Source: a virus. From it: 21,612 nucleotides of DNA. Each line of letters opens with the position of its first letter. Position 1 is the stretch's first letter. The notes under the pieces were generated by a model. It worked only from the letters and a program-made list of their open reading frames with translations, did not search any database and was not told the origin of the DNA. Below, one piece after another: positions 3,656 through 21,612 of the stretch. A program made the translations under genes and the position numbers. Location: positions 1 to 21,612 of IMG/VR virus record IMGVR_UViG_3300047470_000449; one strand, given 5' to 3'.

Positions 3656-3671
3656 TCCCACCACCGTTTAT

Positions 3672-3695: not shown

Positions 3696-3709
3696 GTAGG
3701 AGAGAGGCC

Positions 3710-4484: not shown

Positions 4485-4486
4485 CT

Positions 4487-6409: not shown

Positions 6410-7665
6410 GTGAATGGCGCGACCGTAAGCAAGGCGCCTCCTTTCGGGGGGTGCCGTTCCTGGTGGACACCGACAGCGTGCCTGTCGGTCGGCGGACTCA
6501 GTTGCATGAGTTTCCGCAGCGCGATCAACCCTTTGTCGAAGACCTGGGGCGGCGTACCCGGCACTACAAGTTCACCGGGTTTGTCGCCGGTGAGGATTGC
6601 CTGGCGCAGCGCGACCGCCTGCTGACCGCGCTGGACAAGCCCGGTTCGGGCGAGCTGGTGCATCCGTGGTTCGGCCGCCTCACCGTCACCGCCGGCGAGT
6701 GTGAGGTGTCGCATGCGCGCAACGAGCTGGGCCTGGTGCGCTTCAGCCTGGAGTTTATCGATGGCATGCTGGCCTTCCCGGTGCAGTCGGCGAATACCCG
6801 TCGGCAACTGACGGGCCAGGCTCCGAGCCTGCTGGCTTCGATCAAGGGCCGCTTCAACGCGGTGATGGCGCCGGTGGACATGGCACGGCAGCGGGCCACC
6901 GCGCTGCGCTTGGCGCTGTCGGGTGCCCTGGGCTATGCCTTGAAGTTCCTGCAGCCGGCGTCCAGTTTGGGCACCGACCTCAACGGCCTGGTGGCCTCGC
7001 TGATGAACGGGCCGGGGGCGTTTGCCGACAGCCTGCTCGCTGGGATTAGCGGCCTGTCGCGCGCGTTCGACGGCTACGGTTCCAGCAGTGCGTTCCAGGG
7101 CAGTAGCGCCAAGGCGACGGAGGTGGCGGCGTTATCGGCTACGGCGCCGGCCACCGAGGACGTCGAGGTGGCAACGATCCAGGCCGCGGTGATTGCCCTG
7201 GTGCAGGACGCGGCACTGCTGGATCTGCTGCTGGACATGGCCGAGGTGCCGGTGGCGATCCGTCCGGGCGTGAGCGCGCCGGCGGCGCTGGATGTGCAAC
7301 TGGCGCAACAAGGGCCGACGGTGGTCGCCGGTACCGCGGTCGAGACAGCGGTGCCGGTCGCCGAGGATGTCCTGGTCGTGCGTGACGCGATCAGCGAGGC
7401 GTTGTGGTCGGTGGCCGGTGAGAGCCCGCCGGAACACTTCGGCACGTTGAGCGAGGCCCGCTTGGCCGTGGATCGGCACTTGACGGAAGTGGCGCGCAGC
7501 GGCGTGGGCCTGCGCAGCTATGCCCCGGCCGAAACCGTCTCAGCCCTGGTGCTGGCCCATGCGCTGTATGGCGATGCCTTGCGCAGCGGGGAAATTGTCG
7601 AGCGTAACCGTGTGCGTCATCCGGGATTTGTGCCGGCCACCGATCTCCAAGTAGCGAAGGCCTGA
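6406..7665 (+). CDS. Mu gpN-like DNA circularisation / baseplate hub protein
   Basis: This 419-residue protein matches the DNA_circ_N family (Mu gpN / gp43), a baseplate and tail-tip component thought to influence injected DNA. The diagnostic N-terminal domain (about residues 3-95) contains WRDRKQGASFRGVPFLVDT, a GRRTQLHEFPQRDQPFVEDLG stretch and TRHYKFTGFVAGEDC. It continues with the GSGELVHPWFGRLTV pattern shared with late-control and hub proteins. The remaining 300 residues are Ala/Val-rich and helical, with little recognisable sequence. It overlaps the tape measure stop by ATGA and is followed after two bases by gpP. Naming follows the family; direct DNA circularisation is not proven for this protein. 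Confidence 0.9.
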   Translation: MSEWRDRKQGASFRGVPFLVDTDSVPVGRRTQLHEFPQRDQPFVEDLGRRTRHYKFTGFVAGEDCLAQRDRLLTALDKPGSGELVHPWFGRLTVTAGECEVSHARNELGLVRFSLEFIDGMLAFPVQSANTRRQLTGQAPSLLASIKGRFNAVMAPVDMARQRATALRLALSGALGYALKFLQPASSLGTDLNGLVASLMNGPGAFADSLLAGISGLSRAFDGYGSSSAFQGSSAKATEVAALSATAPATEDVEVATIQAAVIALVQDAALLDLLLDMAEVPVAIRPGVSAPAALDVQLAQQGPTVVAGTAVETAVPVAEDVLVVRDAISEALWSVAGESPPEHFGTLSEARLAVDRHLTEVARSGVGLRSYAPAETVSALVLAHALYGDALRSGEIVERNRVRHPGFVPATDLQVAKA

Positions 7666-7667
7666 CC

Positions 7668-8777
7668 ATGGAACAGCTGAATGACGTCACCCTGAGCGTG
7701 GGTGGGCACGACTACGGCGGTTGGAAAGCCGTCAGCATCGGCGCCGGCCTGGAGCGCCAGGCGCGCGACTTTACCCTAGGCATCACCTGGCGCTGGCCGG
7801 GCGGCGGCGAGGTGCCGGTGCGGATTCGCCAGGGTGAAGCGGTGGAGGTGCGCATTGGCCAGGAGCTGCTGTTGACCGGGTATGTGTTCAGCACGCCGAT
7901 TCGCTACGACAGCGAGTCGGTCACCCTGAGCATCAGCGGGCGCTCGCGCACCGCGGATCTGGTGGACTGCGCGGCGGTCAATCAGCCGGGGCAGTGGCGC
8001 GGGCAAAACGTGCAACAGATCATCGCCGCGATTGCCGGCGAATATGGGATCGCGGTGGTCAATGAGGCGGCGCTGACCTTGGGTGTGGAAGACCACAGCA
8101 TCGAGCCAGGCGAGACCGCGTTTGAAAGTATCGACCGGCTGTTGACATTGTCGCGCCTGTTCAGCACCGACGACGGCCGCGGCCGCCTGGTGATTGCCAA
8201 GCCGGGCAGTGCCGGGCGCGCGGTCGATGCCCTGGAGCTGGGCAAGAACCTGTTGTCGGGTGACACCACGCTGGACTTTTCCGCGGTGTTTTCCGAGTAC
8301 GTCAGCAAGGGCCAGCGCAGTGGGACAGATACCAGTTTTGGCGCGGCGGCCAGCGAGGTCGAAGGGCGGATCAGCGATGAGCGGGTCGAGCGCCGGCGGG
8401 TCAAGATCATTCAGCAGTCCGGGCAGTTGACCGCCAAGCTGGCCCGTGAGCGGGTCGAGTGGGAGCGGGCCAACGCGGTCGGCAAGGCCTTGACCGTCAA
8501 CTACGTGGTGCAAGGCTGGCGGCAAAGCAACGGCGTGTTGTGGCGACACAACATGCTGGTGCGGGTGATCGATCCGTTGATCGGCGTGGACCGCGACATG
8601 CTGATCAGTGAAATCAGCTACGAGCTGAGCGAGCAGGGCACCACGGCGAAAATCAGCGTTGCCCCGCCCGAGGCCTTTCTGCCGGAGCCGAACGACGCTT
8701 ACGAGAAGCGCAAGGTCAAGAAGGGCAAGAAGACCGACAACTTTGAATACCTCATTCCAGCGGACTACAAACCATGA
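7668..8777 (+). CDS. Baseplate hub protein, Mu gpP (gp44)-like
   Basis: The 369-residue product corresponds to Mu gp44 / gpP, the trimeric hub of the baseplate, homologous to T4 gp27 and P2 gpD. The N-terminal half opens with LSVGGHDYGGWKAVSIGAGL, followed by an ARDFTLGITWRWPGGG strand and RIRQGEAVEVRIGQELLLTG. It continues to the ISGRSRTADLVDCAAV motif near residue 90-105, which is strongly conserved in gpP proteins. The C-terminal part has NYVVQGWRQSNGVLWRHNML, a W-x-N-x3-W segment typical of gpD-like hubs. The C-terminus is Lys-rich. It follows gpN by two bases and overlaps gp45 by ATGA. Confidence 0.92.
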   Translation: MEQLNDVTLSVGGHDYGGWKAVSIGAGLERQARDFTLGITWRWPGGGEVPVRIRQGEAVEVRIGQELLLTGYVFSTPIRYDSESVTLSISGRSRTADLVDCAAVNQPGQWRGQNVQQIIAAIAGEYGIAVVNEAALTLGVEDHSIEPGETAFESIDRLLTLSRLFSTDDGRGRLVIAKPGSAGRAVDALELGKNLLSGDTTLDFSAVFSEYVSKGQRSGTDTSFGAAASEVEGRISDERVERRRVKIIQQSGQLTAKLARERVEWERANAVGKALTVNYVVQGWRQSNGVLWRHNMLVRVIDPLIGVDRDMLISEISYELSEQGTTAKISVAPPEAFLPEPNDAYEKRKVKKGKKTDNFEYLIPADYKP

Positions 8778-9289
8778 AAAACGGCATCGCGAACATGCTG
8801 GCCCGCGGGGCGGTGGCCTTGGGCAACTCGGCCAGCAAGCTGCAAAGCCTGCAGCTGCGGTTGTTGGCCGGCGAGGTCAAAGACAACGTGGAGCACCTGG
8901 AGCCCTATGGCTTCACCGCCTGCCCGCAGGAGGGCGCCGAGGCGCTGGCGGCGTTCATTGGTGGTGACCGTAGCCACGGCGTGGTGATCGTGGTGGCGGA
9001 CCGGCGCTTTCGCCTGCAGGGGCTGAAGCCGGGCGAGGTGGCGCTGTACACCGATGAAGGTGATTTCATCCATTTCAAGCGCGGGCGGATGATCGAGATG
9101 GAGACCCTGACGCTCAAGGTCAAGGCGGCCACGGCGGTGGAGTTCGACACGCCGGAGATCCGCACCACCGGCAAGATCATCTCGCAGGGCGATCAGGTCG
9201 CTGCCGGGGTGAGCCAGATCAATCACCCGCACGGCGACGTGCAACCCGGAAGTGGCCAAAGCGGGCCGCCGCTTGGGGGTGGCGCATGA
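8774..9289 (+). CDS. Baseplate spike protein, Mu gp45 / gpV-like
   Basis: The 171-residue protein matches Mu gp45, the trimeric membrane-piercing spike at the tip of the tail tube. The order of elements is an N-terminal helix, an OB-fold domain and a C-terminal beta-prism. The OB-fold contains VEHLEPYGFTACPQEGAEAL and the GDRSHGVVIVVADRRFRLQGL stretch, then LKPGEVALYTDEGDFIHFKRG around residues 90-115. The prism carries MIEMETLTLKVKAATAVEF. Near the end there is a HPHGDVQPGSGQSGPP segment, which resembles the conserved C-terminal His/Gly-Pro-rich metal-binding tip of gp45 (H-x-H). It is coupled on both sides by 4-base overlaps. Confidence 0.92.
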   Translation: MKNGIANMLARGAVALGNSASKLQSLQLRLLAGEVKDNVEHLEPYGFTACPQEGAEALAAFIGGDRSHGVVIVVADRRFRLQGLKPGEVALYTDEGDFIHFKRGRMIEMETLTLKVKAATAVEFDTPEIRTTGKIISQGDQVAAGVSQINHPHGDVQPGSGQSGPPLGGGA

Positions 9290-9672
9290 GCCGAGAGGAT
9301 TTGTTGCGCCGCGCCGTTACCATCAGCCTGTTCACCTGGCGCCGCGCCGGGCCGGATGACGCGGTCGACGACAGCGACCGCCGGGGCTGGTGGGGGGACT
9401 GTGTGCCTTCGGTGGCCGCTGACCAGATTGGCTCGCGCCTGTGGCTGTTGGCGCGTCGCACGCTGGTGGCGCAGACGCTGCTGGATGCCCAGGCCTACGC
9501 CGAAGAGGCGCTGGCCTGGCTGCTCGATGACGGCATTGTCACCGCGGTGGGCGTCACGACCGAGCGCCGCGGCAATGATCGAATGACTTTGCGGGTGACG
9601 CTGACCGAACAGAGCGGCGAAACCTTAGAACTGGACTTTGAGAACACCTGGGGGCTGATCAATGCCGTATGA
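9286..9672 (+). CDS. Baseplate wedge protein, Mu gp46-like
   Basis: At 128 residues this matches the GP46 family (T4 gp25 analogue in Mu-like tails), which links hub and wedge and helps start sheath assembly. The diagnostic elements are the LLRRAVTISLFTWRRAGPDD stretch and the DRRGWWGDCVPS motif at about residues 37-48. SRLWLLARRTLVAQTLLDAQ and the EEALAWLLDDGIVTAVGV segment follow. The conserved W-W-G-D tetrad is clear. Start ATG 9286 overlaps the previous stop (ATGA), and the stop overlaps the start of gp47 by 11 bases. Confidence 0.92.
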   Translation: MSREDLLRRAVTISLFTWRRAGPDDAVDDSDRRGWWGDCVPSVAADQIGSRLWLLARRTLVAQTLLDAQAYAEEALAWLLDDGIVTAVGVTTERRGNDRMTLRVTLTEQSGETLELDFENTWGLINAV

Positions 9673-10705
9673 GATTCCAACGCTGCCGGCGCTGATCCAG
9701 CGCATCGAGGCCGATTTCGAGCGCAATGCCCCGGATGCCCTGCGCCGTGCCGATGCCAAGGTGGCGGCGCGGGCGCTCAGCGGCACCGCCTTCGAGCTGT
9801 ACGGTTATCAAGACTGGATTTCCAAGCAGTCCAACCCGGCGACCTGCGATGAGGAAATGCTGTTGCGCTGGGCGGAATGGCGCCTGGACGAGGGCCGCAC
9901 GCCGGCGGTAGCGGCCAGCGGCCTGGCGCTGGTGACGGGTTCGAGCGGCGCCCTGGTGGACGTGGGCCAGCTCTACCAGTCCGAGGATGGCCGGCGCTAC
10001 GTGGTGGCGCAAACCGCCACGCTGGTCGCTGGTGCAGCCAGTCTAACGGTGGTTGCCGAAGACGTCGGCGCCCTGGGCAACATCGAGGCCGGCACCCTGA
10101 CCGCCGTGTCGCCGGTGTTGGGGGTCAACTCGGAGGCCCTGATTGGGGCGGATGGCATTGTCGGTGGCACCGATGAGGAGAGCCTGGAGGCACTTCGCGC
10201 GCGGGTTCGCGCGGCGTTCAAGAATCCGAGCAAGGTGGGCAGCGGTGCCGATTTTGTCGAGTGGGCGTTGGAGGTGCCAGGCGTCACGCGGGCCTGGGCC
10301 TTGCCGCGCTGGATGGGGCCGGGCACCTTCGGTCTGGTGTTTGTGCGCGATGGGGATGCGGACATTATCCCCACGCCGGCGCAGGTCGCCGCGATGCAGG
10401 TGCATCTGGACAGTAAGCGCCCGGTCACGGCCGAAGTGTACGTCCTGGCCTCGGTCCCCTTGCCGGTCAATTTTAGCATCCGCCTGATCCCCGACAGCAA
10501 CGCCCTGCGCGTCGCGGTCACCACCGCGCTCAGGGGGCTGATCCGGGATGGCGGCGGGTCGGGTTCGACCATCCCTATTTCGCATATTCGGGCCGCGATC
10601 AGCGGGACGCCGGGGGAAACCGATCACCTGTTGTTGGCGCCCGTCAGTGATGTGGTGGTGGCGTTGAATCAGACGGCGGTGTTGGGGGCTATCACATGGG
10701 CTTGA
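9662..10705 (+). CDS. Baseplate wedge protein, Mu gp47 / baseplate J-like
   Basis: This 347-residue protein is the baseplate J / Mu gp47 homologue, the wedge subunit (T4 gp6 analogue) that forms the baseplate ring. The N-terminal part has the PTLPALIQRIEADFERNAPD helix and the LYGYQDWISKQSNPATCDEEML segment with WAEWRLDEGRTPA, both family hallmarks. The Baseplate_J domain (about residues 85-300) includes a LRARVRAAFKNPSKVGSGAD stretch followed by EWALEVPGVTRAWA near residue 200-215. Codon use and GC are as for neighbours. It overlaps gp46 by 11 bases and gp48 by 10 bases, so the three wedge genes are translationally linked. Confidence 0.93.
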   Translation: MPYEIPTLPALIQRIEADFERNAPDALRRADAKVAARALSGTAFELYGYQDWISKQSNPATCDEEMLLRWAEWRLDEGRTPAVAASGLALVTGSSGALVDVGQLYQSEDGRRYVVAQTATLVAGAASLTVVAEDVGALGNIEAGTLTAVSPVLGVNSEALIGADGIVGGTDEESLEALRARVRAAFKNPSKVGSGADFVEWALEVPGVTRAWALPRWMGPGTFGLVFVRDGDADIIPTPAQVAAMQVHLDSKRPVTAEVYVLASVPLPVNFSIRLIPDSNALRVAVTTALRGLIRDGGGSGSTIPISHIRAAISGTPGETDHLLLAPVSDVVVALNQTAVLGAITWA

Positions 10706-11340
10706 GCGAGGAAGACTACTTCCAAAAGCTGCGCCAGTTGCTGCCGCCCGGCCCGGCCTTCAACTTTGAGTTGCAGCCGGATGTGGCGGCGTTGATGGCG
10801 GCGCTGGCCCCCGAGCTGGCGCGGATTGACGGTCAGGATGCGGCGTTGTTGTTGGAGTTGAATCCGGCCACGGCCACGGCCTTGCTGCCGGACTGGGAGG
10901 GTTATCTCGGCTTGCCTGACGTCTGCACCGTACCGGGCTCGCAGACCCTGGAAGAGCGCCGGCAAGCGGTGCTCGACAAACTCACCGCCACGGGTGCCCC
11001 GCAGCGCAGCTATTACCAGCGGATCGCCCAGCGCCTGGGGATCGTGATCAACATTGAGGAGTTTCGCCCGGCGCGGGTGGGCCCGACCCAGGCCGGCGAT
11101 TTTCTCTATGGCGCGGGCTGGCCCTGGAGCTGGATCGCCTCGGCGCCCATTGAGGCCTACGGCACGGCGGCCGCGGCCACCCTCGATTGTCGCCTGCAGC
11201 TGGAGTCGCCGGAGTACACCGACGTGGTGTTGGCCTTTGGCCGGGCCCAGGTGGACACCATCGCCCAGGCGGCGGATTCGTTGTTCAACGCCATTCATTA
11301 CGTGACGCCGGAGGCTATCGCCGGCCTCGAGGACTTGTGA
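10696..11340 (+). CDS. Baseplate protein, Mu gp48-like (DUF2313 / YmfQ family)
   Basis: The 214-residue product fits the DUF2313 (YmfQ, Mu gp48) family, at the place where tail fibres attach to the baseplate. The N-terminus contains EDYFQKLRQLLPPGPAFNFE, the most conserved family feature. LLLELNPATATALLPDWEGYLGLP (residues about 54-77) and an ERRQAVLDKLTATG helix follow. The sequence ends with the cysteine-containing LDCRLQLESPEYTDVVLAFG region, where the family normally carries C-x(n)-P-A-H/E-T. It overlaps the end of gp47 and is followed after one base by the fibre gene. Confidence 0.92.
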   Translation: MGLSEEDYFQKLRQLLPPGPAFNFELQPDVAALMAALAPELARIDGQDAALLLELNPATATALLPDWEGYLGLPDVCTVPGSQTLEERRQAVLDKLTATGAPQRSYYQRIAQRLGIVINIEEFRPARVGPTQAGDFLYGAGWPWSWIASAPIEAYGTAAAATLDCRLQLESPEYTDVVLAFGRAQVDTIAQAADSLFNAIHYVTPEAIAGLEDL

Positions 11341-11341
11341 C

Positions 11342-12142
11342 ATGCAGAAAATTTCAGAGTCGACGGACCTGGTCACCCCGCTGGGGGAGTTCCGTTATGG
11401 CAGTGCGGTGGGCGGGGTGGCCCCGACGCCGCTGACGGCGGAATGGTTGAATGCGCTGCAGGCGGAACTGGCCAACTTTATTTTGGCCTACCTGCCGGCC
11501 TTGGACGCCCTGGATAACGAGCAATTGCTCAAGGCCGCGCGTCAACTCGTGGCCAATTTGGCGGTGAAGGCCACCACGCTGGCCGGTTATGGCATTGGCG
11601 ATGCCTACACCAAGGCGCAAACGGACACGTTGGTAGCGGCCAAGGCTAATTGGGGCATCACCTTGGCGGCCTATGGTATCGGCGACGCGTACACCAAGGC
11701 GGCCGTAGATGGTCTGCTGGCCGGCAAAGCCAATAACGCTATCACCCTGGCCGGCTATGGCATCGGCGACGCGTACACTAAGGCGGCCGTCGATGGCTTG
11801 GTGACGACGATCAATGCCACGTTGGCCACCAAACAAGACAAAAACACCGCGTTGATGGCCGCCAACGGTTGGCGCCTGGACAAAGCCACCGGGCTGCTCG
11901 AGCAGTGGGGGGCTGGCGTTTGCCCGGCGGATACCACGACGGCGCCGATCAACTTCCCGACGCCGTTTGCCGAGGTCTACAACTGCTTTGGCAACAAGAT
12001 CGTGACCAACTCGGTCGACGGTGACGGCAACAGCGCCGGGGCGTTCGCCAGCAGCGCCACGCAGTATCAGTTGTTCAACGATACGAACCTGATGGCGGTC
12101 ACCGTGCATTGGCGCGCGATTGGTCGAGCGCCCGGTTACTGA
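11342..12142 (+). CDS. Tail fibre protein with 28-residue repeats and gp53-like C-terminus
   Basis: This 266-residue tail fibre begins one base after gp48, the usual Mu gp49 / gpS place. The first about 70 residues contain the VTPLGEFRYGSAVGGVAPTP and TAEWLNALQAELAN patterns that anchor short fibres to the baseplate. Three copies of TLAxYGIGDAYTK follow at residues 79-91, 107-119 and 135-147, a strict 28-residue period. The GYGItDAYTK type of repeat is common in P2/Mu-family fibre shafts. The C-terminal domain, from NGWRLDKATGLLEQWGAGV onward (about residue 175), resembles the gp53-like C-terminal receptor-binding fold. At 266 aa it is short. No dedicated fibre-assembly chaperone gene follows; a terminator comes next instead. 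Confidence 0.88.
   Translation: MQKISESTDLVTPLGEFRYGSAVGGVAPTPLTAEWLNALQAELANFILAYLPALDALDNEQLLKAARQLVANLAVKATTLAGYGIGDAYTKAQTDTLVAAKANWGITLAAYGIGDAYTKAAVDGLLAGKANNAITLAGYGIGDAYTKAAVDGLVTTINATLATKQDKNTALMAANGWRLDKATGLLEQWGAGVCPADTTTAPINFPTPFAEVYNCFGNKIVTNSVDGDGNSAGAFASSATQYQLFNDTNLMAVTVHWRAIGRAPGY
11576..11782 (+). repeat. Three 84-base coding repeats in the fibre shaft
   Basis: Units begin at 11576, 11660 and 11744, giving a period of 84 bases (28 codons). The second and third copies are nearly identical in DNA around GGCGACGCGTACAC(C/T)AAGG, while the first has diverged. Such repeats can recombine and change shaft length. Confidence 0.85.
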
Positions 12143-12167
12143 TCTGCAAATTCATAAGTTTCACACC

Positions 12168-12207: not shown

Positions 12208-14961
12208 ATGACTGATATTTCAGCGCTGGAGGCCTATGCCGGCCAGCTGTCGGAGGCGGCTGCGCGCGCGAATGCCGCTTCTGGAAAGCAGCACGTCTAT
12301 GTCCACGGTGATGACCAAACAGATGTGGTGACCGAGTCCGGTCCGGTTCCTTCGCTGGCCAAACAGGCGCGGCGGTCGTTGGAAATCACCGCCGGGTTGT
12401 ACCAAGCGCTGCTGAACCGCGATGCCATCTTCGTCGAAGATTTCGGCGCCGTCGGGGGCGACCTGACGGCCAGCAACGGCGATGCCTGGCGCCGCGCCTT
12501 CCTGGCCTGCGCGGTGCGAAAGAAGTCGAAGCTTTATGGCTTCAACAACGTGTACTCCTTCCAGAATGACCACTTGCGCATCCCGGATGGCCTTACCTTT
12601 GAGGGTGCCGGGCGTGACCACTGGGACGTCAAGGCGTCGTGGCGCCCGCGCAAAATGGAAGTCGGCACCACCCTGCTGTTCTGTGGCACCCCGACCGACA
12701 CCGTACAAGTGGTGAACGTGTCGAACATGCGGGTGGCGGGTGGGGTGATCCCTAACGATGCGCCGGAAGGGTTCGCCGGGAACCAGAACTATTCCTTGCT
12801 CGACTTCACCAACGGCGACTCGACCGGCGCCGATCCGGCCACGCCGAAAAACCTGCGCGTGGCCGTGTCCCTCGGCAATGATGCGCACCTGGTAAATTGC
12901 CGAGTGCAACTCAACTACAACGGCGTGGATGGCTACAACTCGGTCGAGTTGTTGCCGGATTTCCCGGAGTACACCGCGTCTTACAACGGCTTCGGTGATA
13001 ACTACGACATCGGCGTGCTGACCTACAACAAGATGGACACCGGGCTGCAAGGTGTTCAGGTGGTCGGTTACTGGCGCATGGCGGCGCGGGCGATTATCGC
13101 CTCGAACTACGATGACGCGCGTTGGTATAGCGGCTGCGTGTTCCACGACGATGACATTTTCTTTCAGGGCTTCTACGGTCTTTCGATTCGCAGCAACGAC
13201 GTGCACCGCATCACGGCGATTGACGCTACTACCGTGTCGGTGCCGTGGAACGCCTCGCACACGGTACCGCGCAGCGGCAAGGTCTGGCTGGGCAATACGC
13301 CGTGCACCTATACCGCCACCAGCGTCGTCGGCGGCATGATCGTGCTGACCGGGTTTTCGGTGACGCCGAGCGCGCTGTCCTCGGTCGGTAAGGAGTGTTT
13401 CTTCGGCACGCACCCCGGCTTTGCGATCTCCTCGATCAGCAATGGCAGCATCACCGGCATGAACCACTTCACCAACCGCCGGCCGTATGACACCGCATTG
13501 GATACGCCAACCGCGAACCCAGGCGGCTGCTTCGAAATCAGCGGCAACCCTTTGCGGCATATCGAATTTGGGAATATCCACCTGTTCGATGTGGACGTGA
13601 TCGGCTTCCTCAAAGACACCCTGCACATTTCGTTCAAAGGCTGCGACGCCGAGGGGCAGGGTTTTGTCGGCATGGTGGGCACCGCCAAAGGCGCGCGGAT
13701 GATTGCCTCGGCGCCCATCGACGACGCCAACGCGCACGGCGCGTACCCGGCTGGTGCCACGGGCGGCGTGAGCTGGGATAATTCTGGCTCGATGGGCGAT
13801 GGCTCGGTCGATCTGAAGCCGTTCCAAAGTAGCACGCTCGGCCGGCATCCGGGCACCAACAAGTATTTCATGCCCGATACCATGCTCTGGAACGCCCAGG
13901 GCCACTGGATCAGTTCCATCGAGACCCGCCGCCGCTACAATGTCGGCATGCAGTTTGTGGCGAAAGGTCTGGAGGGGGCTGAGTATATCGAGCTGGTCAC
14001 GCCGGCTTTCGCCCGGATGGCGCGCTTCTCGGCGTCCAATATGCGCGTTGGCTTGGGCGGAACGACGGCACCGGCGTCGAGCATTCACTACCTCGGAACG
14101 ACCAACGCTGATCTGCGTTTGCAGACCAGCACCGCCGGCGCGGAGCCCGCGCTTCGCCTGCAAAATACCGTCGGAACGTGGCACTTTCGGCCATCCGCGG
14201 GGGCCTCTAACCGCCTGCAATTTGTGTATGAATCCAGCACTGTCATGCAGATGTCGCAGGCGGATGGGTCGCTCTATCCCGGTTCCTCGGGCGTGCCCGA
14301 TCTCGGTACCGAGGCTAGCAAATTCCGCAAACTGTTCTTGAGTGACGCCATTGGTTCCACCACGGCCAAGGTGCCTAATGGGCATTTCAACAACGTGTTC
14401 ACTGATTCGGGTGCGGTGTCGGTGTCGGACGAGCGGCTAAAAACCGAGAAGCTGCCCGTCGATGATCGGGTCTTGGATGCATGGGAGCAAGTTGAATACA
14501 TGCAGTTCAAGTTTGCCGACATGGTCGACGCCAAAGGTGCCGATGCCCGGATTCACTTTGGGGTGATGGCGCAGCGGGTGGAGCAGGTCTTCTCCGCGGC
14601 TGGCCTTGATCCGTTCGCTTACGGGATCTTGTGCTACGACGAATGGGGCGACGAATACGTGCCGGAAACCGCGTTGCGCACCGTATACGACGAGCACACT
14701 GAGGAGGGGGAAATAGGGGAGGACGGGGAACTGGGTGCGCCTATCGTCACCTACACCCCGCGGCAGGAAGAATATGAAACCGGAGAACTGCGCCTGCTGA
14801 CGCCGGCGGGTGACCGGTACGGGGTCCGATACCATGAGGCGCTGGCGCTGGATGCGGCTCTACTGCGAAGAGACAAAAGACGCGCTGATCTTGAGAGAGA
14901 TCTAATGCAGAGAACAATAAGGGGCCTTGAGGAGCGTCTGGCTGCGCTTGAGTTGGCGTGA
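12208..14961 (+). CDS. Tailspike / long tail fibre with pectate-lyase-like shaft and C-terminal S74 chaperone
   Basis: The 917-residue product looks like a trimeric tailspike. Residues 1-70 form a helical attachment region. From about 77 the pattern EDFGAVGGDLTASNGDAWRRAF marks the start of a pectate-lyase-like beta-helix, the fold of glycan-degrading tailspikes. Beta-rich sequence continues to about 600. A typical pre-chaperone stretch follows, including the DLRLQTSTAGAEPALRLQNT segment. The C-terminal intramolecular chaperone begins with SDERLK, where Ser740 and Lys745 match the Ser/Lys dyad of the endosialidase (S74) family, so the last about 178 residues should be released by self-cleavage after folding. 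HFGVMAQRVEQVF and a final coiled coil (about 877-917) are also typical. The substrate cannot be told. A ribosome site (GGAGAAAAG) precedes ATG 12208. Confidence 0.9.
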   Translation: MTDISALEAYAGQLSEAAARANAASGKQHVYVHGDDQTDVVTESGPVPSLAKQARRSLEITAGLYQALLNRDAIFVEDFGAVGGDLTASNGDAWRRAFLACAVRKKSKLYGFNNVYSFQNDHLRIPDGLTFEGAGRDHWDVKASWRPRKMEVGTTLLFCGTPTDTVQVVNVSNMRVAGGVIPNDAPEGFAGNQNYSLLDFTNGDSTGADPATPKNLRVAVSLGNDAHLVNCRVQLNYNGVDGYNSVELLPDFPEYTASYNGFGDNYDIGVLTYNKMDTGLQGVQVVGYWRMAARAIIASNYDDARWYSGCVFHDDDIFFQGFYGLSIRSNDVHRITAIDATTVSVPWNASHTVPRSGKVWLGNTPCTYTATSVVGGMIVLTGFSVTPSALSSVGKECFFGTHPGFAISSISNGSITGMNHFTNRRPYDTALDTPTANPGGCFEISGNPLRHIEFGNIHLFDVDVIGFLKDTLHISFKGCDAEGQGFVGMVGTAKGARMIASAPIDDANAHGAYPAGATGGVSWDNSGSMGDGSVDLKPFQSSTLGRHPGTNKYFMPDTMLWNAQGHWISSIETRRRYNVGMQFVAKGLEGAEYIELVTPAFARMARFSASNMRVGLGGTTAPASSIHYLGTTNADLRLQTSTAGAEPALRLQNTVGTWHFRPSAGASNRLQFVYESSTVMQMSQADGSLYPGSSGVPDLGTEASKFRKLFLSDAIGSTTAKVPNGHFNNVFTDSGAVSVSDERLKTEKLPVDDRVLDAWEQVEYMQFKFADMVDAKGADARIHFGVMAQRVEQVFSAAGLDPFAYGILCYDEWGDEYVPETALRTVYDEHTEEGEIGEDGELGAPIVTYTPRQEEYETGELRLLTPAGDRYGVRYHEALALDAALLRRDKRRADLERDLMQRTIRGLEERLAALELA

Positions 14962-15030: not shown

Positions 15031-15765
15031 TCAGGCGGTATACGGGAATTTGATATGAATCCTTCCGAGCATGGCGCGCTGTGTCAAAACAGCGTCCACC
15101 ATAGTATTGAATCCCTTGATGCCCTCATAATAATACTTGTGCTCTGTATCAAAAAGGTTGGCTAGTATTAGCCCAATGCCTTGAATTTTCCCGCACATGG
15201 AAAGAAGAATGTCGCGGTTTGCAATGTCCATTGGGTGCTGCCCAATGAATGCGCAAATTACAGAGCCCCTTGACTGGTATGGCAGATCATCGATGTTGTA
15301 TTTGTTCGGTATAGCGTCAAAGATGACGCGCAACTCACTCCATGCATGAGGTCGGCTCACGTCAAAGTTTAGTTGTGGGTTGTTGGTGACAGCGTTGGCA
15401 TTGAAATGCAGCGCCAAATCAATAGCGGCGTATCCCGACATGGAGGCACCGAAAAACACCACGTTTTCCGGGGCGTATCCTTCCATGGCTTTAGCGATAA
15501 CTGCCTTGATGTGGGAGCCGCCATCCTTCCTTAGGTAATAACTGTTTGTCGGGTCTGTTATACAAACGATATCACCTGGGAAATGACGGTAGTAACTCAA
15601 TAGTCCTGCGTATACTCCATTGTTCTTTAATGTTGCCATTGCTATCAAAAGCGTTTTTGAAGGTTTGCTTCTTTTTATATAGACAATATTCTCCCCGAGA
15701 ATATTGATCTGATATTTTTCGACGACCTGATCGTAATCCAACTCATTGCAAACATCTTCTAACAT
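15031..15765 (-). CDS. Alpha/beta-hydrolase-like protein, probable moron
   Basis: This 244-residue protein lies on the opposite strand between tailspike and endolysin and is clearly AT-richer than the tail genes. It has the order of an alpha/beta-hydrolase fold. Strands (NIVYIKR, TLLIAMATL, IVCITDP) are followed by a nucleophile elbow VVFFGASMSGYAAIDLAL at residues 102-119, with Ser108 or Ser110 as candidate nucleophile. Asp206 and His209 (FDTEH) are candidates for the rest of the triad. The segment NANAVTNNPQLNFD is like that of esterase-like proteins found in polysaccharide gene clusters, a comparison made from memory. No signal peptide is seen. AGGAAAG lies about 8 bases before its ATG. 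Possible roles are removal or transfer of acyl groups on surface glycan, but the substrate is unknown. Confidence 0.65.
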   Translation of the reverse strand: MLEDVCNELDYDQVVEKYQINILGENIVYIKRSKPSKTLLIAMATLKNNGVYAGLLSYYRHFPGDIVCITDPTNSYYLRKDGGSHIKAVIAKAMEGYAPENVVFFGASMSGYAAIDLALHFNANAVTNNPQLNFDVSRPHAWSELRVIFDAIPNKYNIDDLPYQSRGSVICAFIGQHPMDIANRDILLSMCGKIQGIGLILANLFDTEHKYYYEGIKGFNTMVDAVLTQRAMLGRIHIKFPYTA

Positions 15766-15932
15766 CTAGCTTTCCTGACTAATAAATGATGTTCCGCTCG
15801 AAAGTGAGCGCCTTGGATTGCGACTCATGGCGCAGCTCTCTAGCCCGCCAGTCTATCTGAAGTCGTCAACATCTACGAGTCAGGGTTTCCGCTATATCCG
15901 CCCAACCTCAGGATTTTTTTACCGGAGAGAAT
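15766..15932. other. Divergent intergenic region between hydrolase and endolysin
   Basis: The 167 bases separate two divergent starts and must hold the leftward promoter for the moron-like gene. A small CGCTC / GAGCG stem (15795-15810) and a T7 run at about 15912-15918 before the endolysin ribosome site (GGAGAG) are visible. I could not identify a convincing -35/-10 pair on either strand. Confidence 0.35.
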
Positions 15933-16589
15933 ATGCCGATCACCGACCAGCAGTTGCTGCAGCTCCTCCCCAATTCCCGCCCAGTCGCGGGAATTTTTTT
16001 GCCTGCACTGAACCGGACCATGTCCCGCTACAAAATCGACAGCCCCGTGCGTCAGTCGGCATTTCTGGCGCAAGTCGGTCACGAGTCAGGTCAGTTGCGC
16101 AACCTGGTCGAGAACCTGAACTACAGCGTTGAGGCCCTGATGGTGAAATTCAATCGTGAACGAATCCGTGAGGCGGATGCCAAAGCCTATGGTCGCGCCG
16201 CAGGGCGAGCGGCCAATCATCAAGCAATAGCCAACTGTGTCTACGGCGGTACCTGGGGCGCGAAGAATCTCGGTAACAAGAAGCCGGGCGACGGTTGGTT
16301 GTACCGAGGTCGTGGCCTGATCCAGATCACCGGCCTCGTGAACTACACCCCGTGCGCTGCAGCGCTGGGCCTGGACCTAATCAATCAACCCGAGTTGCTC
16401 GAGCAGCCGGAGCACGCGGCGATGTCCGCCGGCTGGTGGTGGGCGAACCACGATCTGAACGAACTTGCTGATGCTGGCCGTTTCCAAGACATCGGTAGCG
16501 TCATCAACACCGGCAAACCTGGACGGTTGCCGCATGGTGCCGACGAACGCAAGGCGCTGTATGACCGCGCGTTGCAGGTGCTGGTGTGA
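15933..16589 (+). CDS. GH19 (chitinase-like) endolysin
   Basis: The 218-residue protein is a glycoside hydrolase family 19 lysozyme-type endolysin that cuts peptidoglycan to release phage. The catalytic glutamate is Glu51 in AQVGHESGQLRNLVENLNYS, with Glu60 as probable second acid. The substrate-cleft motif GDGWLYRGRGLIQITG (about 119-134) followed by NYTPC is diagnostic. The Trp-rich SAGWWWANHDLNELAD segment (165-180) is also conserved. No signal peptide or membrane anchor is visible, so a holin would be needed for access to the wall. The start at 15933 has a good GGAGAG site. A second ATG at 16020 would remove the first 29 residues, but those look like native family sequence. An intrinsic-terminator-like hairpin lies within codons 14-23. 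No holin or spanin gene is adjacent. Confidence 0.93.
   Translation: MPITDQQLLQLLPNSRPVAGIFLPALNRTMSRYKIDSPVRQSAFLAQVGHESGQLRNLVENLNYSVEALMVKFNRERIREADAKAYGRAAGRAANHQAIANCVYGGTWGAKNLGNKKPGDGWLYRGRGLIQITGLVNYTPCAAALGLDLINQPELLEQPEHAAMSAGWWWANHDLNELADAGRFQDIGSVINTGKPGRLPHGADERKALYDRALQVLV
15972..16000 (+). terminator. Terminator-like hairpin inside the endolysin coding region
   Basis: AATTCCCGC (15972-15980) and GCGGGAATT (15987-15995) form a 9-bp perfect stem with a 6-base loop, followed by seven T residues (15994-16000). It has every sequence mark of an intrinsic terminator but lies in frame in codons 14-23, encoding NSRPVAGIF. Confidence 0.6.
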
Positions 16590-16974
16590 TCGGGAAATCA
16601 CCGAGCTACAGGTTAGCCCTGATGCTTACTATAGGGGTTTTCCTGATGGTACCTAAGCGGCAAACTTATCCAAAGGGTAACCATCATAAAACTCTACCCT
16701 ATGTGTAAGTTTGCCAACCACCACTTGAGACCAGTAGACTTTCTTGCGACCACCAAGGAATTGCTAAGCATCTAACAATATGTGAGTTTTCCGACAATCA
16801 AATTTCGAGAATTATCAGCAATCAAAATTAACAAACTATTCAAACCCAGCGATGTCAGGCTCTCTACAATTTTTGCCTAGCCTGAAAGTAAGAACCTCCA
16901 GTATTGGCGGTATTTGTAGCCCGAAACACATGAGCGGTTTATTTAATTTCAAGCTAAGCTTCCTACATAAAGAT
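16590..16974. other. AT-rich intergenic region after the endolysin
   Basis: The 385 bases carry no convincing gene on either strand. They hold a two-tier inverted repeat (16659-16715, listed separately) and otherwise AT-rich sequence without motifs I recognise. It is where a spanin pair or the end of the prophage might be expected, but no att-like direct repeat can be recognised within the window. Confidence 0.6.
16659..16715. repeat. Two-tier inverted repeat (hairpin 1)
   Basis: Outer arms GGCAAACTTA (16659-16668) and TAAGTTTGCC (16706-16715) are perfect 10-base complements. Inside them AGGGTA (16674-16679) and TACCCT (16695-16700) form a second perfect stem. No T run follows on either side, so it is not a standard terminator. 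The outer arms share CAAACTT / AAGTTTGC with the hairpin at 18042-18093. Confidence 0.75.
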
Positions 16975-17784
16975 TTATTCTGAAATCAATGCCCTTACAC
17001 TTCCTGCCAGGGCAAAATAAAGCTCCGGCTTAAAGTGGCTTGCGCTATTAGTATGATAAGCATCATTTACATAGAAAGGGTTCACGACACTCATTATATC
17101 GGTGTCCAGCGCCTCAACAAACTCCCAAGTTGTGTTGATACGCCTTTCCTGCGCCCTTACTTTGTCAATAGGAAAGTGCAAGAAAATAATTTTAGCTTTC
17201 GGCAGCCTCTTCTTTAGGTAAGCCGCAATTCTAATATTATTTGTCGCAGACTGCTCCGCGGAAAGGTAAGGAGCAAGTTCGAACTTATCTCTAAAACTCG
17301 ATACATAATCAGTACGCATAAAAAACGGAAAGGATTTTTCGGCTTCTTGCATCATCCAAATTCGAGCCCCCAAGTCCATATGGTTATCCATCAAGATAAT
17401 GTCAACGTCCTGCTGGTCCAAGATTTCGTGAAGCGGAGCTCCAGACTTAATGTTTCCAACTGGGAGTCCTGGGGTGATATTGTGCAGCCCCATGGTCGAT
17501 AGTGCTTGATTGCGAATAATCTGCTCAGGGTCTTCATCACCACTTTTGTCGTTACATCCCATATCGCGAAGAACATCGTCTCGCAACTGGCTCCAATTAA
17601 ATTGGGGGTTTCCATCTATTTGGTAGTGACAGAATTGGTCACTACGATTGTGGTAGATCGATGAGATGGTCCAAGCACCATACAAATTGGAAAATCGGTC
17701 AGCCGTGTACCTTGAGAGACAGGATCCAAAAGTCAAGATTTTCGGAATAAAACCATCTTGTTTCAATTTTTCTGATAGGATCAT
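16975..17784 (-). CDS. SGNH-hydrolase-like protein (resembles DUF6270-type polysaccharide proteins)
   Basis: This 269-residue protein shows the blocks of an SGNH/GDSL-type esterase. KILTFGSCLSRYTADRF is near the start, with Ser21 as likely nucleophile in the GSC variant of block I. ILMDNHMDLG follows (Asn134 as possible block III residue), then IIFLHFPIDKVR. Near the end is NDAYHTNSASHF, in which Asp241 and His244 give the D-x-x-H of block V. GSC-x-S-R proteins of this sort (DUF6270-like, related in style to WcbI) occur in capsule and O-antigen clusters. This is recalled, not searched. A role in adding or removing acyl groups on glycan is inferred. No signal peptide is seen. AAGGAAG precedes ATG by about 7 bases. 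The gene is AT-rich, stands alone between two hairpins and is read leftward like the glycosyltransferase genes to its right. Confidence 0.65.
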   Translation of the reverse strand: MILSEKLKQDGFIPKILTFGSCLSRYTADRFSNLYGAWTISSIYHNRSDQFCHYQIDGNPQFNWSQLRDDVLRDMGCNDKSGDEDPEQIIRNQALSTMGLHNITPGLPVGNIKSGAPLHEILDQQDVDIILMDNHMDLGARIWMMQEAEKSFPFFMRTDYVSSFRDKFELAPYLSAEQSATNNIRIAAYLKKRLPKAKIIFLHFPIDKVRAQERRINTTWEFVEALDTDIMSVVNPFYVNDAYHTNSASHFKPELYFALAGSVRALISE

Positions 17785-18100
17785 TCTACTTCCTTAATAA
17801 TCGAAATCGCCCTCTGCGTTTGGCGAATTTTGCGAGATGTTATCGATGGCGTGCGTTGATAGCAATCCCAGAAACGTTTAAGAACAAGGAATCGTTAGAT
17901 ATCCCTCGAACTTTCTGAAAAAGCGTTTTCCAAAACTGCCAAGCGTCTCTTTGGGCTATTTAGGGAGGGTCTGAAGTATCCACCGATTTTTCATGCCCTC
18001 GCTACTTGTGTTGGGACTCAGTGTGAGCTAGGGGGGAAGCCAGAAACAGACAAACTTTCGCGAAAACTAGAATTGCGAAAGTTTGCTGTTTCTTTAGTTG
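17785..18100. other. Intergenic region with an unexplained open stretch and hairpin 2
   Basis: This 316-base gap separates the glycosyltransferase and SGNH genes. A plus-strand frame stays open for roughly 70 codons from a TAG near 17900 to TAA 18118-18120, but it has no ATG or ribosome site near its beginning and the peptide is not recognised. The right end holds the long hairpin 18042-18093. The leftward promoter of the SGNH gene should be here but is not evident. Confidence 0.4.
18042..18093. repeat. Long hairpin (hairpin 2): 19-bp stem with a one-base bulge
   Basis: AGAAACAG (18042-18049), a bulged A and CAAACTTTCGC (18051-18061) pair perfectly with GCGAAAGTTTG (18075-18085) and CTGTTTCT (18086-18093), leaving a 13-base loop. 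It begins 8 bases after the stop of the leftward glycosyltransferase gene, so it may act as its terminator. The leftward strand after it reads TGGCTTCCCCCC, without a T run. Confidence 0.8.
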
Positions 18101-19975
18101 TTATGCAGCCCGCGACTTAAGGTTGTCTAGCAGTACATCTAGGATGATGAAGTGATCCTCCCACCGCGGCGGGGTATAGCTGCCCAGCGCCTTCACTGCA
18201 TCGTCGTGAACGTCTTTACTCGGGTCGCTGAAATCAAGGATTGTTTTCTGCCAAGTAATGGCGTCGAGAGGGTTAATGAAGGTGGCCAACGCCGAACTGG
18301 CTTCGTGGAAAACGGGAATGTCAGAGCAAATGACTGGTGTTCCCATCGCCTGGGTCTCAATCAGTGGCATACCCCAGCCTTCGCTGAAGGATGGGAACAG
18401 CATTGCTTTTGCTCCACGAATAACCCGTTTCAACCCGGCGTCACTGAGATCGCTTAGCTCAACAACATACGGTTTTATGGCTTCACACTGGTCAATAAAA
18501 TTGAAAACATTCTGATTTTCCCAGCCTCGTTTTCCAACAATGACCAGCTTTGGAGGTGTGATGCCCCGCAAAATCCAGTCCCTCCAGATTTGAAGCAGGA
18601 AGAGATGGTTTTTGCGTGGTTCAATCGTGCCGATGTACGTGAAGTAACTTTGTTGGTCCAGCGTCTCAAGCGCAGGAGAGAATTCTTCCGCAGGGCTCTC
18701 GAAGAAGCTTTCTTCAACCCCAATGTAGGCAACCTCGCATTCCGGCAACCGAAGCTCTTGGCTTTCGCACCAGGACAGAAAGGAAGTTTTAGTCGCTTCG
18801 GAGTTGACAATAACCATATCCGCACAGAATGAAACGGTGTCCATTCTTTTTATATGGTCGCTGTAACCGCTTGCGCGTACGTACTCGGGAAAGTCTATCG
18901 GAATCAAGTCATGGATATAAAAGGCGAACTTCAAGCCAAGCTTCATTTTCAGGGTAAAGAAGCCATCCTTGTTTGAAATGCCGTGATGAGACGTGTTTAA
19001 GTATACGGAGTTTCCGCGCGGGTAAGAGTTGATCAGTCGCGCCAAAGGCCTGCTGCAGTACTTCAAAACCTCATCGTCAATTTCACGACGATCGCTGGGC
19101 GATGACAGGTTGGTGTTTTTCAGTTGCTCAGATTTTTGGTTTCTGTGTAACGGAAGTAGACTTGAGTACGACTCAATCAAGTCTTTCGAACTTAACGGTA
19201 GTAGAGTTTTGGTTATAAGTTCGATAAAGTCGTTGTAAGATAGCTCCGGCAAATCGCTAAGCGTTTGACCTGAGTTTAAATTTTCAACGAAGGATAACGT
19301 TTCAAACTTTAATGGGTTGAAGAATAGGTCTTCCAGCTTTTCTGCAAAAACTTTTGTGCAGCTATCTACGACGATTGAGCCTGGCTTAGTGGTGAATGCG
19401 TAGTCGAATGCAGTGTCTGAAGTGTTGTTTTTTGAGTTGTTGATGAGTACCGTGGTGGAAGCCGGGTTCTCATCTTTGTACTCGTTCAATTGATTGGATA
19501 CGTCGGCAAATTTTTTCTGTAGTATAAACAGAGTTTTGTTTGCTTGGGGGAGTTTTAGAAGTGAAGAGCCACTGTGCCGTGTTTGCTTTTTTGACAGCTC
19601 AATTTGCAGTTGGGATAGGTGTTCAGCGTCCAGTATAAACTGCGTATTGCAAAGAGAGTCGTCTCCTAATCGAAGATAATTATCATTGTTGAATGTTAAG
19701 ATGTCATAGGGTACGGCGGAAATGCCAGAGTCTTTAAACCAGTCATTGGCTTCTTTGGTCAGATACCTCGAGAGGACCAATATTACTACGCTTTTATTAG
19801 CCTTAAGAAAATTTGATTTTCCTGTCAGCCAGGTGAGGGGGGCGAAAGTAATTTTGACGGAAGGCAGTCGCGCTGAAATGAAGGCGTGCTTGTCTGGTGG
19901 GCAGGCGACAATCATAAGCTCGCTTGCTACTTGATCGTTTTGAGCGACCAATAGGGGGGATGCAATTTCTGTCAT
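18101..19975 (-). CDS. Family 4 (GT-B) glycosyltransferase with long unrecognised N-terminal region
   Basis: The 624-residue protein ends in a clear GT4 glycosyltransferase. It has AFYIHDLIPIDFPEY (351-365), YIGTIEPRKNHLFLL (447-461) and LVIVGKRGW (477-485). The E-x7-E donor-site motif follows in SEGWGMPLIETQAMGTPVIC (Glu532, Glu540). SVYLNTSHHGISN (323-335) is the acceptor-side segment usual in this subgroup. The first about 300 residues match nothing I know. They are hydrophilic, with a few alpha/beta-looking stretches and no membrane segment. Proteins of this subgroup normally carry a TGIDRVE-type N-terminus, which here is found in the separate small gene just upstream. The start at 19975 follows an in-frame TAA by 12 bases and has a poor ribosome site, so it may depend on coupling to the small gene 16 bases before it. 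Donor and acceptor sugars are unknown. It is AT-rich relative to the tail genes. Confidence 0.85.
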   Translation of the reverse strand: MTEIASPLLVAQNDQVASELMIVACPPDKHAFISARLPSVKITFAPLTWLTGKSNFLKANKSVVILVLSRYLTKEANDWFKDSGISAVPYDILTFNNDNYLRLGDDSLCNTQFILDAEHLSQLQIELSKKQTRHSGSSLLKLPQANKTLFILQKKFADVSNQLNEYKDENPASTTVLINNSKNNTSDTAFDYAFTTKPGSIVVDSCTKVFAEKLEDLFFNPLKFETLSFVENLNSGQTLSDLPELSYNDFIELITKTLLPLSSKDLIESYSSLLPLHRNQKSEQLKNTNLSSPSDRREIDDEVLKYCSRPLARLINSYPRGNSVYLNTSHHGISNKDGFFTLKMKLGLKFAFYIHDLIPIDFPEYVRASGYSDHIKRMDTVSFCADMVIVNSEATKTSFLSWCESQELRLPECEVAYIGVEESFFESPAEEFSPALETLDQQSYFTYIGTIEPRKNHLFLLQIWRDWILRGITPPKLVIVGKRGWENQNVFNFIDQCEAIKPYVVELSDLSDAGLKRVIRGAKAMLFPSFSEGWGMPLIETQAMGTPVICSDIPVFHEASSALATFINPLDAITWQKTILDFSDPSKDVHDDAVKALGSYTPPRWEDHFIILDVLLDNLKSRAA

Positions 19976-19991
19976 TGGATTGGCCGCTTAT

Positions 19992-20261
19992 TTATTCTAA
20001 GGCATCAACTGGAATTGAAGGAGGAACTTCCTTCTCTCCGTGATTCCATCGGTTGGCGATGGTTTGAATGAACTCTCTGCTCGACGCATCGTCTAGCAGC
20101 ACTAATCGAACGCCGTCCTGTCTGACGAATGCTACGTCTTTACCTTCAGCGTTAAACAGTTCAAGCGCGTACCTTAGATCCACGCGGTCGATACCAGTTG
20201 GGGTCTCTGCATTCCTGCGAGCAATTAACCGTGTGAGGTCGTATACAACCAATTGATTCAT
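19992..20261 (-). CDS. Small protein resembling the detached N-terminus of a GT4 glycosyltransferase
   Basis: This 89-residue product begins MNQLVVYDLTRLIARRN and continues ETPTGIDRVDLRYALELF. That is the N-terminal strand-loop-helix pattern (YDvTRL...TGIDRVE..YA) of a subgroup of GT4 glycosyltransferases. It stops after PPSIPVDALE without the rest of the domain. I chose ATG 20261, three bases after the preceding stop and with GGGACGG before it. A longer reading from 20366 would overlap the previous gene by about 100 bases and add a foreign-looking leader. The next gene starts 16 bases further on in another frame. It may be a real split subunit that associates with the downstream GT4, or a relic of a frameshift or recombination. 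Confidence 0.6.
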   Translation of the reverse strand: MNQLVVYDLTRLIARRNAETPTGIDRVDLRYALELFNAEGKDVAFVRQDGVRLVLLDDASSREFIQTIANRWNHGEKEVPPSIPVDALE

Positions 20262-20263
20262 GA

Positions 20264-21355
20264 TTACCGTCCCCATTTCTGGTTGATCATGAACTTCATC
20301 GCGTCGGAGGGAAGCGGGACGCCTGGGTTCAATTGTTCCTCTGAACCAGAGAACAGGTAGCGCCAAAATGCGGGCGTGAGCGAGATTCCAGATACAGGTA
20401 GATAGGTTGTGCTGCGTTCACTCGGTGGTACGTCCGACGGTTTGACTCCCTGCGAAGACGGAGTCTTACTCAGACGCAATGTGGTTTTCCCAAAAAGCTC
20501 TGCTTCGATCAGGGAGCCGGAGGAAATAGAACAGAATGTGATATTTTTATCCATGACGAACAAGTCGTAAATGTTCACATCCAAGATGTTGATGTTGTGC
20601 GATTTTAACTCAGCTTCAAAGGGTTGTCTGTTTTTGAAGTGAGGGTGGAACTTATAGTAGACTTTTGGGAAGTAAGATTTGAGTTCGATCAGCGTGGCAA
20701 TGACTTCCTTCGGCGTAATCATTTTTTTGCCGTCAATCAAAGAAGAGTCGACGTCAATTTGCCCTAGAAATACTGCGGAACCAGGTGAAACGGTTACATT
20801 ACGGAAGACGCGCGCGCTACGTCCGAGAGACATGCGTGCATGCGAAACAATATCCTCATGAGGGATTGTCATGGCAGCAATCCGCTCTTGGAACTCCGGA
20901 ACGTTGGTGCGCATGCCGAACACATAATCAGGCAAGAAACGAATCGCGTGAAGTGTCAGGTCGACGTAATGTATTGAGGCCTTGTTTAACGCATTTATCA
21001 GCAATGGAGAAAGTTCAAAGCCGAAAAAGAGATGGTTTTTGTAAGGTTTCAAGGCTTCTGCGATATAATCTGCTTCGTCTTCATCTGAGTGAAACGCAGA
21101 TGCCCAGCCGGAGCTGTCGAACGGAAGCTGGAAGTCGGAGTAGAATTTAAAACGATTCAGTGGATCGCTAGGTTCTGTGCCAGTTAAGGTCGAAATTTTG
21201 CAGTTCAGAATTTCTGAAAAAGTGGTACCAAACAAAGAGAAAAGCCAGTCGCTATGAATTTCTTGTGGGTTTTCATATTTTTTATCTGACCGATCATCAA
21301 CTTTCAGAACATCTGTTGTGAAAACTACACCGTCGTACAGTTTTTCCGTGGACAT
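20264..21355 (-). CDS. KpsS/KpsC-like polysaccharide biosynthesis protein, probable GT-B transferase
   Basis: About 363 residues from ATG 21355. The C-terminal half has the order of capsule-type transferases of the KpsS/KpsC or sialyltransferase-like kind. A strand and basic-His segment VYYKFHPHF (about residues 232-240) is followed by DVNIYDLFVMDKNITF and SISSGSLIEAELFGKTTLRL near 277-296, the usual S-S-G/S..EA..fGk acceptor of the nucleotide-sugar phosphate. In the N-terminal half, HYVDLTLHAIRFLPDY is distinctive. A longer reading from GTG 21445 adds 30 residues but lacks a ribosome site. ATG 21355 has GGAG seven bases upstream. It heads the leftward gene group and its stop lies two bases before the next start, so they are likely co-transcribed. 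Sugar specificity is unknown. AT-rich codon use resembles the following genes. Confidence 0.62.
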   Translation of the reverse strand: MSTEKLYDGVVFTTDVLKVDDRSDKKYENPQEIHSDWLFSLFGTTFSEILNCKISTLTGTEPSDPLNRFKFYSDFQLPFDSSGWASAFHSDEDEADYIAEALKPYKNHLFFGFELSPLLINALNKASIHYVDLTLHAIRFLPDYVFGMRTNVPEFQERIAAMTIPHEDIVSHARMSLGRSARVFRNVTVSPGSAVFLGQIDVDSSLIDGKKMITPKEVIATLIELKSYFPKVYYKFHPHFKNRQPFEAELKSHNINILDVNIYDLFVMDKNITFCSISSGSLIEAELFGKTTLRLSKTPSSQGVKPSDVPPSERSTTYLPVSGISLTPAFWRYLFSGSEEQLNPGVPLPSDAMKFMINQKWGR

Positions 21356-21445
21356 CAACAAACTCCATGTGTGCATATAAATTTCAAGTGTTACCAGGTT
21401 GAGATCAGAAAACTGACAGTCGATCTGAAATTGTGTGGCTTTCAC

Positions 21446-21612
21446 TCTGCTGATTACGGCGATTTGCGCCTTCTCAATTTTACCTGTAACGGGGGGGCAA
21501 TTGGAAGCGAGGGGCGCTAGTGCCTGCAGTGTGGTTCGTGGGCGTTACCCCAGAAAGAAGGGGCTGCGAGCGATCTTCTATGCCTTGGAATGGATCGACG
21601 CTACCGGGTCAT
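21446..21612. other. Right-edge region without an assigned gene
   Basis: The sequence upstream of the leftward gene group is more GC-rich at its far end. A plus-strand frame is open to the edge and reads GRYPRKKGLRAIFYALEWID, but I do not recognise it and no start with a ribosome site is seen. It could be the beginning of a gene, a mobile-element remnant or an untranslated leader. Confidence 0.25.

Follow-up and report, generated by a model that had tools for sequence, protein, structure and literature searches.

The window analyzed here is a complete virus record from IMG/VR (IMGVR_UViG_3300047470_000449; 21,612 bases, of metagenome type, with no host genome attached). Its right-hand part carries a series of AT-rich genes read leftward, which may alter the surface glycan of bacteria lysogenized by an SfV/Mu-like phage. 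The gene order in this part is a tail spike (plus strand), an alpha/beta-hydrolase-like gene (minus strand), a GH19 endolysin (plus strand), and then, all on the minus strand, an SGNH-like gene, a GT4 glycosyltransferase (GT), a detached GT N-terminal piece, and a homologue of the GT140 transferases of 3-deoxy-D-manno-oct-2-ulosonic acid (Kdo). All five leftward AT-rich open reading frames (ORFs) of the original prediction were recovered in place, and the computed G+C content falls as claimed, from 60–69% across the tail genes to 43–53% from approximately 15 kb rightward. The fall starts within the interval between spike and endolysin (47% in the hydrolase-like gene), and the content climbs again across the endolysin. 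ORF calling was mechanical, and small genes may have been overlooked.

To the left of these genes, SfV/Mu-like head–tail connector and contractile tail genes lie in collinear order at 100–11340 on the plus strand (Pfam, PHROGs), with the sheath at 2171–3655, the tape measure at 4487–6409, and the baseplate genes running to gp48 at 10696–11340; they are followed by a tail fibre protein (11342–12142, plus strand; PHROGs tail fibre, 44–76% identity to the fibres of relatives). The gp47 baseplate protein has 64–77% identity in its closest relatives, which are IMG/VR contigs, and, among annotated phage records, the SfV-like element of Pseudomonas fluorescens Q8r1-96 comes nearest (sheath 65%). We read the window as the tail-to-right-end portion of an SfV/Mu-like temperate phage of Pseudomonas type; these relatives suggest a Pseudomonas host.

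The spike–lysozyme gap in related phages

The tail spike (12208–14961, plus strand; PHROGs tail spike) consists of an anchor of approximately residues 1–60, a unique body, and an S74 C-terminal chaperone (Pfam Peptidase_S74), with PDB matches of the C-terminus to tail spikes and endosialidase. Its anchor is conserved in 64 loci, and similarity to relatives is usually confined to the first 54–70 residues, reaching 125 in a few; the body has been exchanged among relatives while the anchor was retained. This architecture suggests a surface glycan as the target of the spike.

To examine what lies beside the spike in relatives, we drew on 80 loci gathered via gp47 and the 64 gathered via the spike anchor. 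Of 50 records inspected, 31 allowed us to place the spike as well as the lysozyme; those that stem from the same study may be related, and the slot counts are to be read accordingly. The gap between the two genes is shorter than 1.2 kb in 20 of the 31, which leaves space for one fibre-assembly gene, and longer than 1.5 kb in the other 11, which thus contain extra DNA. Seven of the 11 long gaps hold surface-glycan enzymes of Pfam type: acyltransferase-3 (L077, L216), a hexapeptide acetyltransferase (L090, the same record as L193, and L101, the same as L180), an AlgX-type SGNH acetyltransferase (L069, also L220), GT92/GT2 (L097, also L197), and the slot ORF of L194, which is included by position and ORF size only, having the same size and place as the hexapeptide acetyltransferase and no separate scan. 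One further long gap contains an alpha/beta hydrolase below the Pfam cut-off (L099, also L181), and in three (L187, L188, L221) the ORFs are unassigned or unscanned. Across all 11 long gaps, Pfam assigned an unrelated function to no slot gene. Restriction-modification, ATPase, reverse-transcriptase, and integrase genes do occur in the relatives, all of them outside the spike–lysozyme gap. Two more loci, outside the 31-record count, carry LicD and a cytidylyltransferase downstream of the spike (L186) and an acyltransferase-3 ahead of the lysozyme (L137; this ORF is over-extended across the lysozyme, and its C-terminal part alone was counted as the gene).

These observations support the view that related SfV-like phages use the spike–lysozyme gap as an exchangeable accessory slot, the assigned contents of which are surface-glycan enzymes. 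A slot of such diverse glycan chemistry, shared across a family of phages of this kind, was not found in the open-licence papers searched. As a separate observation, the fibre–GH19 slot of L044 holds a 675-aa protein with no family match (7825–9852), which by eye spans the membrane multiple times and is possibly a new glycan-modifying membrane enzyme.

In the window, the slot is occupied by the alpha/beta-hydrolase-like gene (15031–15765, minus strand). The prediction had placed this gene inside the phage gene order, and it indeed lies between the spike and the rightward GH19 endolysin (15933–16589, plus strand; Pfam PF00182, 7.5e-7; PHROGs endolysin, 1.3e-77). Because the same gap in relatives is an accessory slot with surface-glycan enzymes, its candidacy as a conversion gene appears well grounded. 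The encoded protein has a GASMSG elbow, in which the second glycine of GxSxG is substituted, and its profile matches, among them the UPF0227/YqiA esterases and the XcbB_CpsF capsule family, are all below the cut-off. Pairwise comparison gave an E value of 0.003 only among the slot hydrolases of the window, L065, and L099, a level that does not prove homology. A plasmid search returned one relative, from Sinorhizobium sojae, with 43% identity over 83 residues and a common C-terminus. This S. sojae megaplasmid gene (L233, 5989–6468) is internally deleted and flanked by two Capsule_synth genes, so that the family of the slot hydrolase also occurs in a capsule-type locus. Most likely, the slot enzyme would make an ester- or acyl-related change to a surface glycan.

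The GT140 homologue and its neighbours

The gene that comes first in the right-hand block on its own strand, at 20264–21445 (minus strand), had been labelled KpsS-like, a label that we replace: by sequence and catalytic residues, its product belongs to GT140, the KrkA family of retaining beta-Kdo transferases. A five-member profile matches the KrkA structure (PDB 9yfx) with an E value of 6.4e-59 over positions 24–383, and the window sequence by itself does so at 1.3e-15. The QxxxD nucleophile motif is kept, with Q229 and D233 corresponding to Q189 and D193 of KrkA, and is invariant across the alignment; the general base E144 (FE) aligns with Glu102 (YE) of KrkA, R169 with Arg127, and H267–P268 with the HP motif that binds cytidine monophosphate (CMP). 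KrkA, the founding member of GT140, is a retaining beta-Kdo transferase of the Escherichia coli K13 capsule (PMC12887879). The resemblance to KrkA thus extends over both sequence family and catalytic residues; the two differ in that KrkA is fused to a ribosyltransferase, whereas the GT140 protein of the window stands alone on a phage contig, next to a GT4.

The closest parallel to this pair lies on the Escherichia fergusonii plasmid pYUXJMC1-3 (L003), where a GT140-type gene (38% identity) is followed after 2 bp by a GT of the same type as that of the window (44%). There the pair sits in a complete capsule locus with a transporter, KpsF, Capsule_synth genes, and an intact GT, and with no phage genes, which sets it apart from the window. 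Both families also occur in a Tepidimonas locus, near export-like and KpsC/KpsS-like proteins (the last two identified by eye). A genome-wide GT140 scan found nine distant loci, all bacterial, and the corresponding scan with the GT4 found nothing. No KpsMT/KpsED transporter or KpsC/KpsS linker genes occur in the window, which stops 167 bases beyond the GT140 gene.

The GT4 itself is divided. A 624-aa ORF (18101–19975, minus strand; Pfam Glycos_transf_1, 7e-15) is preceded on its strand by a small ORF (19992–20258, minus strand, with an approximate start near 20258; DLTRL...TGIDRVDLRYA). The split N-terminus that had been proposed is confirmed by a two-part alignment to the intact 511-aa E. fergusonii homologue, residues 3–78 of which match the small ORF (41% over 79 residues) and residues 94–438 of which match residues 286–621 of the 624-aa ORF (44%). 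The C-terminal GT domain is intact; the two GT-B halves are not in one chain, the first approximately 80 residues being separate. Residues 1–285 of the 624-aa ORF form an extension with no detectable relatives.

Just past the GT4 gene, a long hairpin (18042–18093, minus strand; −26.4 kcal/mol, z −5.35, also visible as a self-match) probably marks the end of a GT140–GT4 transcription unit. These 52 bases, a nearly perfect inverted repeat, are long for a terminator and could also mark a mobile-element or recombination site.

Beyond the hairpin lies the gene at 16975–17784 (minus strand), predicted to encode an SGNH enzyme. The ORF is present, and its product is SGNH-like by motifs read only by eye, FGSC near the N-terminus and DAYH near the C-terminus; the protein has no Pfam, NCBIfam, or meaningful PDB match. 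No relatives of this orphan were found in IMG/VR (by pattern search) or among plasmids.

Phage or host ownership of the right-hand block

Whether the genes at 16975–21445 belong to the phage bears on any account of their function, and the right ends of related phages provide a frame for the question. In L080, cargo lies between the lysis genes and attR, a 26-bp tRNA-end repeat (TGGTGGAGCCGGGGGGATTTGAACCC) at 19702–19727 that also occurs near left-end integrases (L154, 5027); the direct-repeat search for att sites succeeded for L080 alone. The L080 cargo is a NotI-type restriction-modification pair (16726–18881), in which a C-5 DNA methylase accompanies the NotI-like endonuclease; L087 and L192 have NotI-sized ORFs at the corresponding position. 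In L038, GH19 is separated from a tRNA 3′ end by a gene of 277 aa and a SRAP gene read leftward (12888–13619); GH19 is likewise followed by a leftward SRAP gene in L061 (11324–12307) and L069 (19584–20567), and by a leftward hydrolase-like gene in L065. This recurrence of a leftward gene for SRAP, an SOS-response peptidase, to the right of GH19 (also in L063, 12628–13302), and its position as the last gene before the tRNA 3′ end in L038, make it a useful right-end marker for the phage group. Two other relatives carry possible defence genes: in L212, a reverse transcriptase of 589 aa (RVT_1; 17078–18847) lies rightward of the lysis genes, and in L093, an AAA-ATPase of 619 aa (AAA_21/AAA_15; 10308–12167), leftward and AT-rich, adjoins the spike region on its right side.

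At the right edge of the window itself, a possible decayed SRAP fragment (21550–21601, minus strand) contains stop codons and is 77% identical to the L069 SRAP gene across 48 bp. The match is weak: 2 of 200 shuffled windows outscore it in nhmmer, and, while no shuffle of the segment scored as well, other window segments scored nearly as high. A plus-strand peptide at the same edge had no match.

On balance, we consider that phage ownership of the block is slightly favoured. Several results weigh against it and against the conversion scheme built on it. The window contains no attR, no tRNA end beyond chance, and no integrase; relatives of the GT140, hydrolase, and SGNH-like genes were not found in IMG/VR by pattern search, and annotated phages yielded only remote GT matches. 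In addition, profile and structure searches leave the fold of the slot hydrolase unproven (single-sequence AlphaFold models of this protein and of the SGNH-like protein had a predicted local distance difference test score of 36–37 and were discarded), and the split may have damaged or inactivated the GT4.

The strongest competing explanation, which we regard as possible though short of even, assigns the right-hand genes to a bacterium, as part of an island for a Kdo-containing capsule or surface polysaccharide beside a prophage or its remnant, and leaves the slot hydrolase alone to the phage. The GT140 and GT4 relatives otherwise occur in bacterial capsule-type loci, the IMG/VR pattern search found no GT140-bearing virus record, no spanin gene is present, the endolysin is followed by 386 bp of AT-rich sequence devoid of long ORFs, and the contig ends so soon after the GT140 gene. 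The interval from endolysin to GT genes, however, holds no attR or tRNA end to separate phage from host, and the GH19-type relatives L065 and L069 likewise have leftward genes directly past the endolysin; the SRAP-like trace points weakly the same way. Even remote GT140 genes occur in just 2 of 398 Pseudomonadaceae genomes, and the SGNH-like and hydrolase genes in none of them (in searches run without a positive control). The block was not found as such in these genomes, which leaves a housekeeping O-antigen island in Pseudomonadaceae unsupported. The predicted conversion system therefore stands in part: the hydrolase does lie in a slot for glycan enzymes and the enzyme set does differ from the gtr cassette, but 16975–21445 could not be assigned firmly to phage or host.

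It is also conceivable, though unlikely, that the block is decaying cargo which, its GT broken, no longer yields a product, as the division of the GT into two ORFs plus the 285-aa extension, the stop codons in the SRAP-like trace, and the wide intergenic gaps might suggest. Against decay, the GT140, 624-aa GT, and SGNH-like ORFs are open, the GT140 catalytic residues are kept, and the 2-bp spacing from GT140 to the GT start is retained as in E. fergusonii. Less probable again is a role of the slot hydrolase in the virion or in entry, for example as a tail-associated esterase, instead of in conversion. The gene does lie directly between spike and endolysin, and Klebsiella prophages use SGNH-domain esterases as receptor-binding enzymes (PMC13123978); but it is AT-rich and antisense to the late genes, as are the acyltransferases and LicD that relatives carry at this position, it has a relative in a capsule locus, and no tail-anchor similarity was found. 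An assembly chimera of phage and capsule locus, suggested by the metagenome-type record and the sharp G+C fall, is very improbable, since that fall begins inside the phage slot and reverses over the endolysin, and since relatives have similar AT-rich cargo at the same place.

Proposed conversion of the lysogen surface

The explanation that we prefer, and to which we give an even chance as a whole, is a phage with slot cargo and a second, capsule-derived block that recodes the surface glycan of the lysogen. The spike would bind or cleave a host surface polysaccharide; in the lysogen, the leftward AT-rich cargo would be expressed apart from the rightward late genes and would alter that polysaccharide, so that the same spike no longer recognizes the lysogen. 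The slot gene would contribute an alpha/beta-hydrolase-like enzyme for an acyl- or ester-related step, and the right-hand block (GT140, GT4, and the orphan SGNH-like gene) would most likely be a second cargo from a Kdo-containing capsule locus, in which GT140 adds beta-Kdo from CMP-Kdo and GT4 adds a further sugar. Of these elements, the gene order, the exchange of slot contents among relatives, the GT140 membership, and the GT140–GT4 order shared with a capsule locus are observed, whereas we infer that the block belongs to the phage, that the split GT4 is active, which sugar is the acceptor, that the cargo is expressed in the lysogen, and that superinfection is excluded. The most specific form of this scheme, in which a phage-borne GT140, its partner GT, and the slot hydrolase give the lysogen a Kdo-containing glycan that its own spike does not recognize, we consider doubtful; if true, conversion would bring in a portion of a capsule pathway and not decorate an existing O-antigen.

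The principle is that of SfV, a phage that enters via a surface glycan and carries cargo recoding that glycan in the lysogen. The gtr cassette of SfV lies beside tail genes and attP and comprises the membrane flippase gtrA, the bactoprenol glucosyltransferase gtrB, and a specific membrane transferase. None of these three was found among the ORFs or family matches of 15–21.6 kb, which bears out the prediction of a different enzyme set. The window resembles SfV in tail type and in having candidate surface-glycan genes beside the tail fibre or spike genes, with no attP or attR in view, but its cargo, one enzyme or a small set, is exchangeable and runs in reverse orientation. Among SfV-like prophages of Pseudomonas, the element of Pf-5 is described with bacteriocin genes alongside it, not glycan genes (PMC2647930). 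Acinetobacter prophages combine a tailspike depolymerase with Wzy, EpaA/EpaB, or the Atr acetyltransferase, for which protection has been proposed (PMC13228068); they share with the window a spike gene near capsule-altering genes and the same idea of protection, but involve other phages and enzymes, and their altered capsule structures have been determined.

Shigella and Acinetobacter already provide examples of prophages that recode the surface sugar used by their own spike. Within the collections and open-licence literature covered, the GT140 Kdo transferase of the window would be the first to be phage-borne, provided that the right-hand block is phage cargo. For the SfV-like, Pseudomonas-type family, the present analysis adds a defined, exchangeable slot for glycan enzymes beside an equally exchangeable spike, such that spike specificity and receptor change can be matched and examined together in many natural phages.

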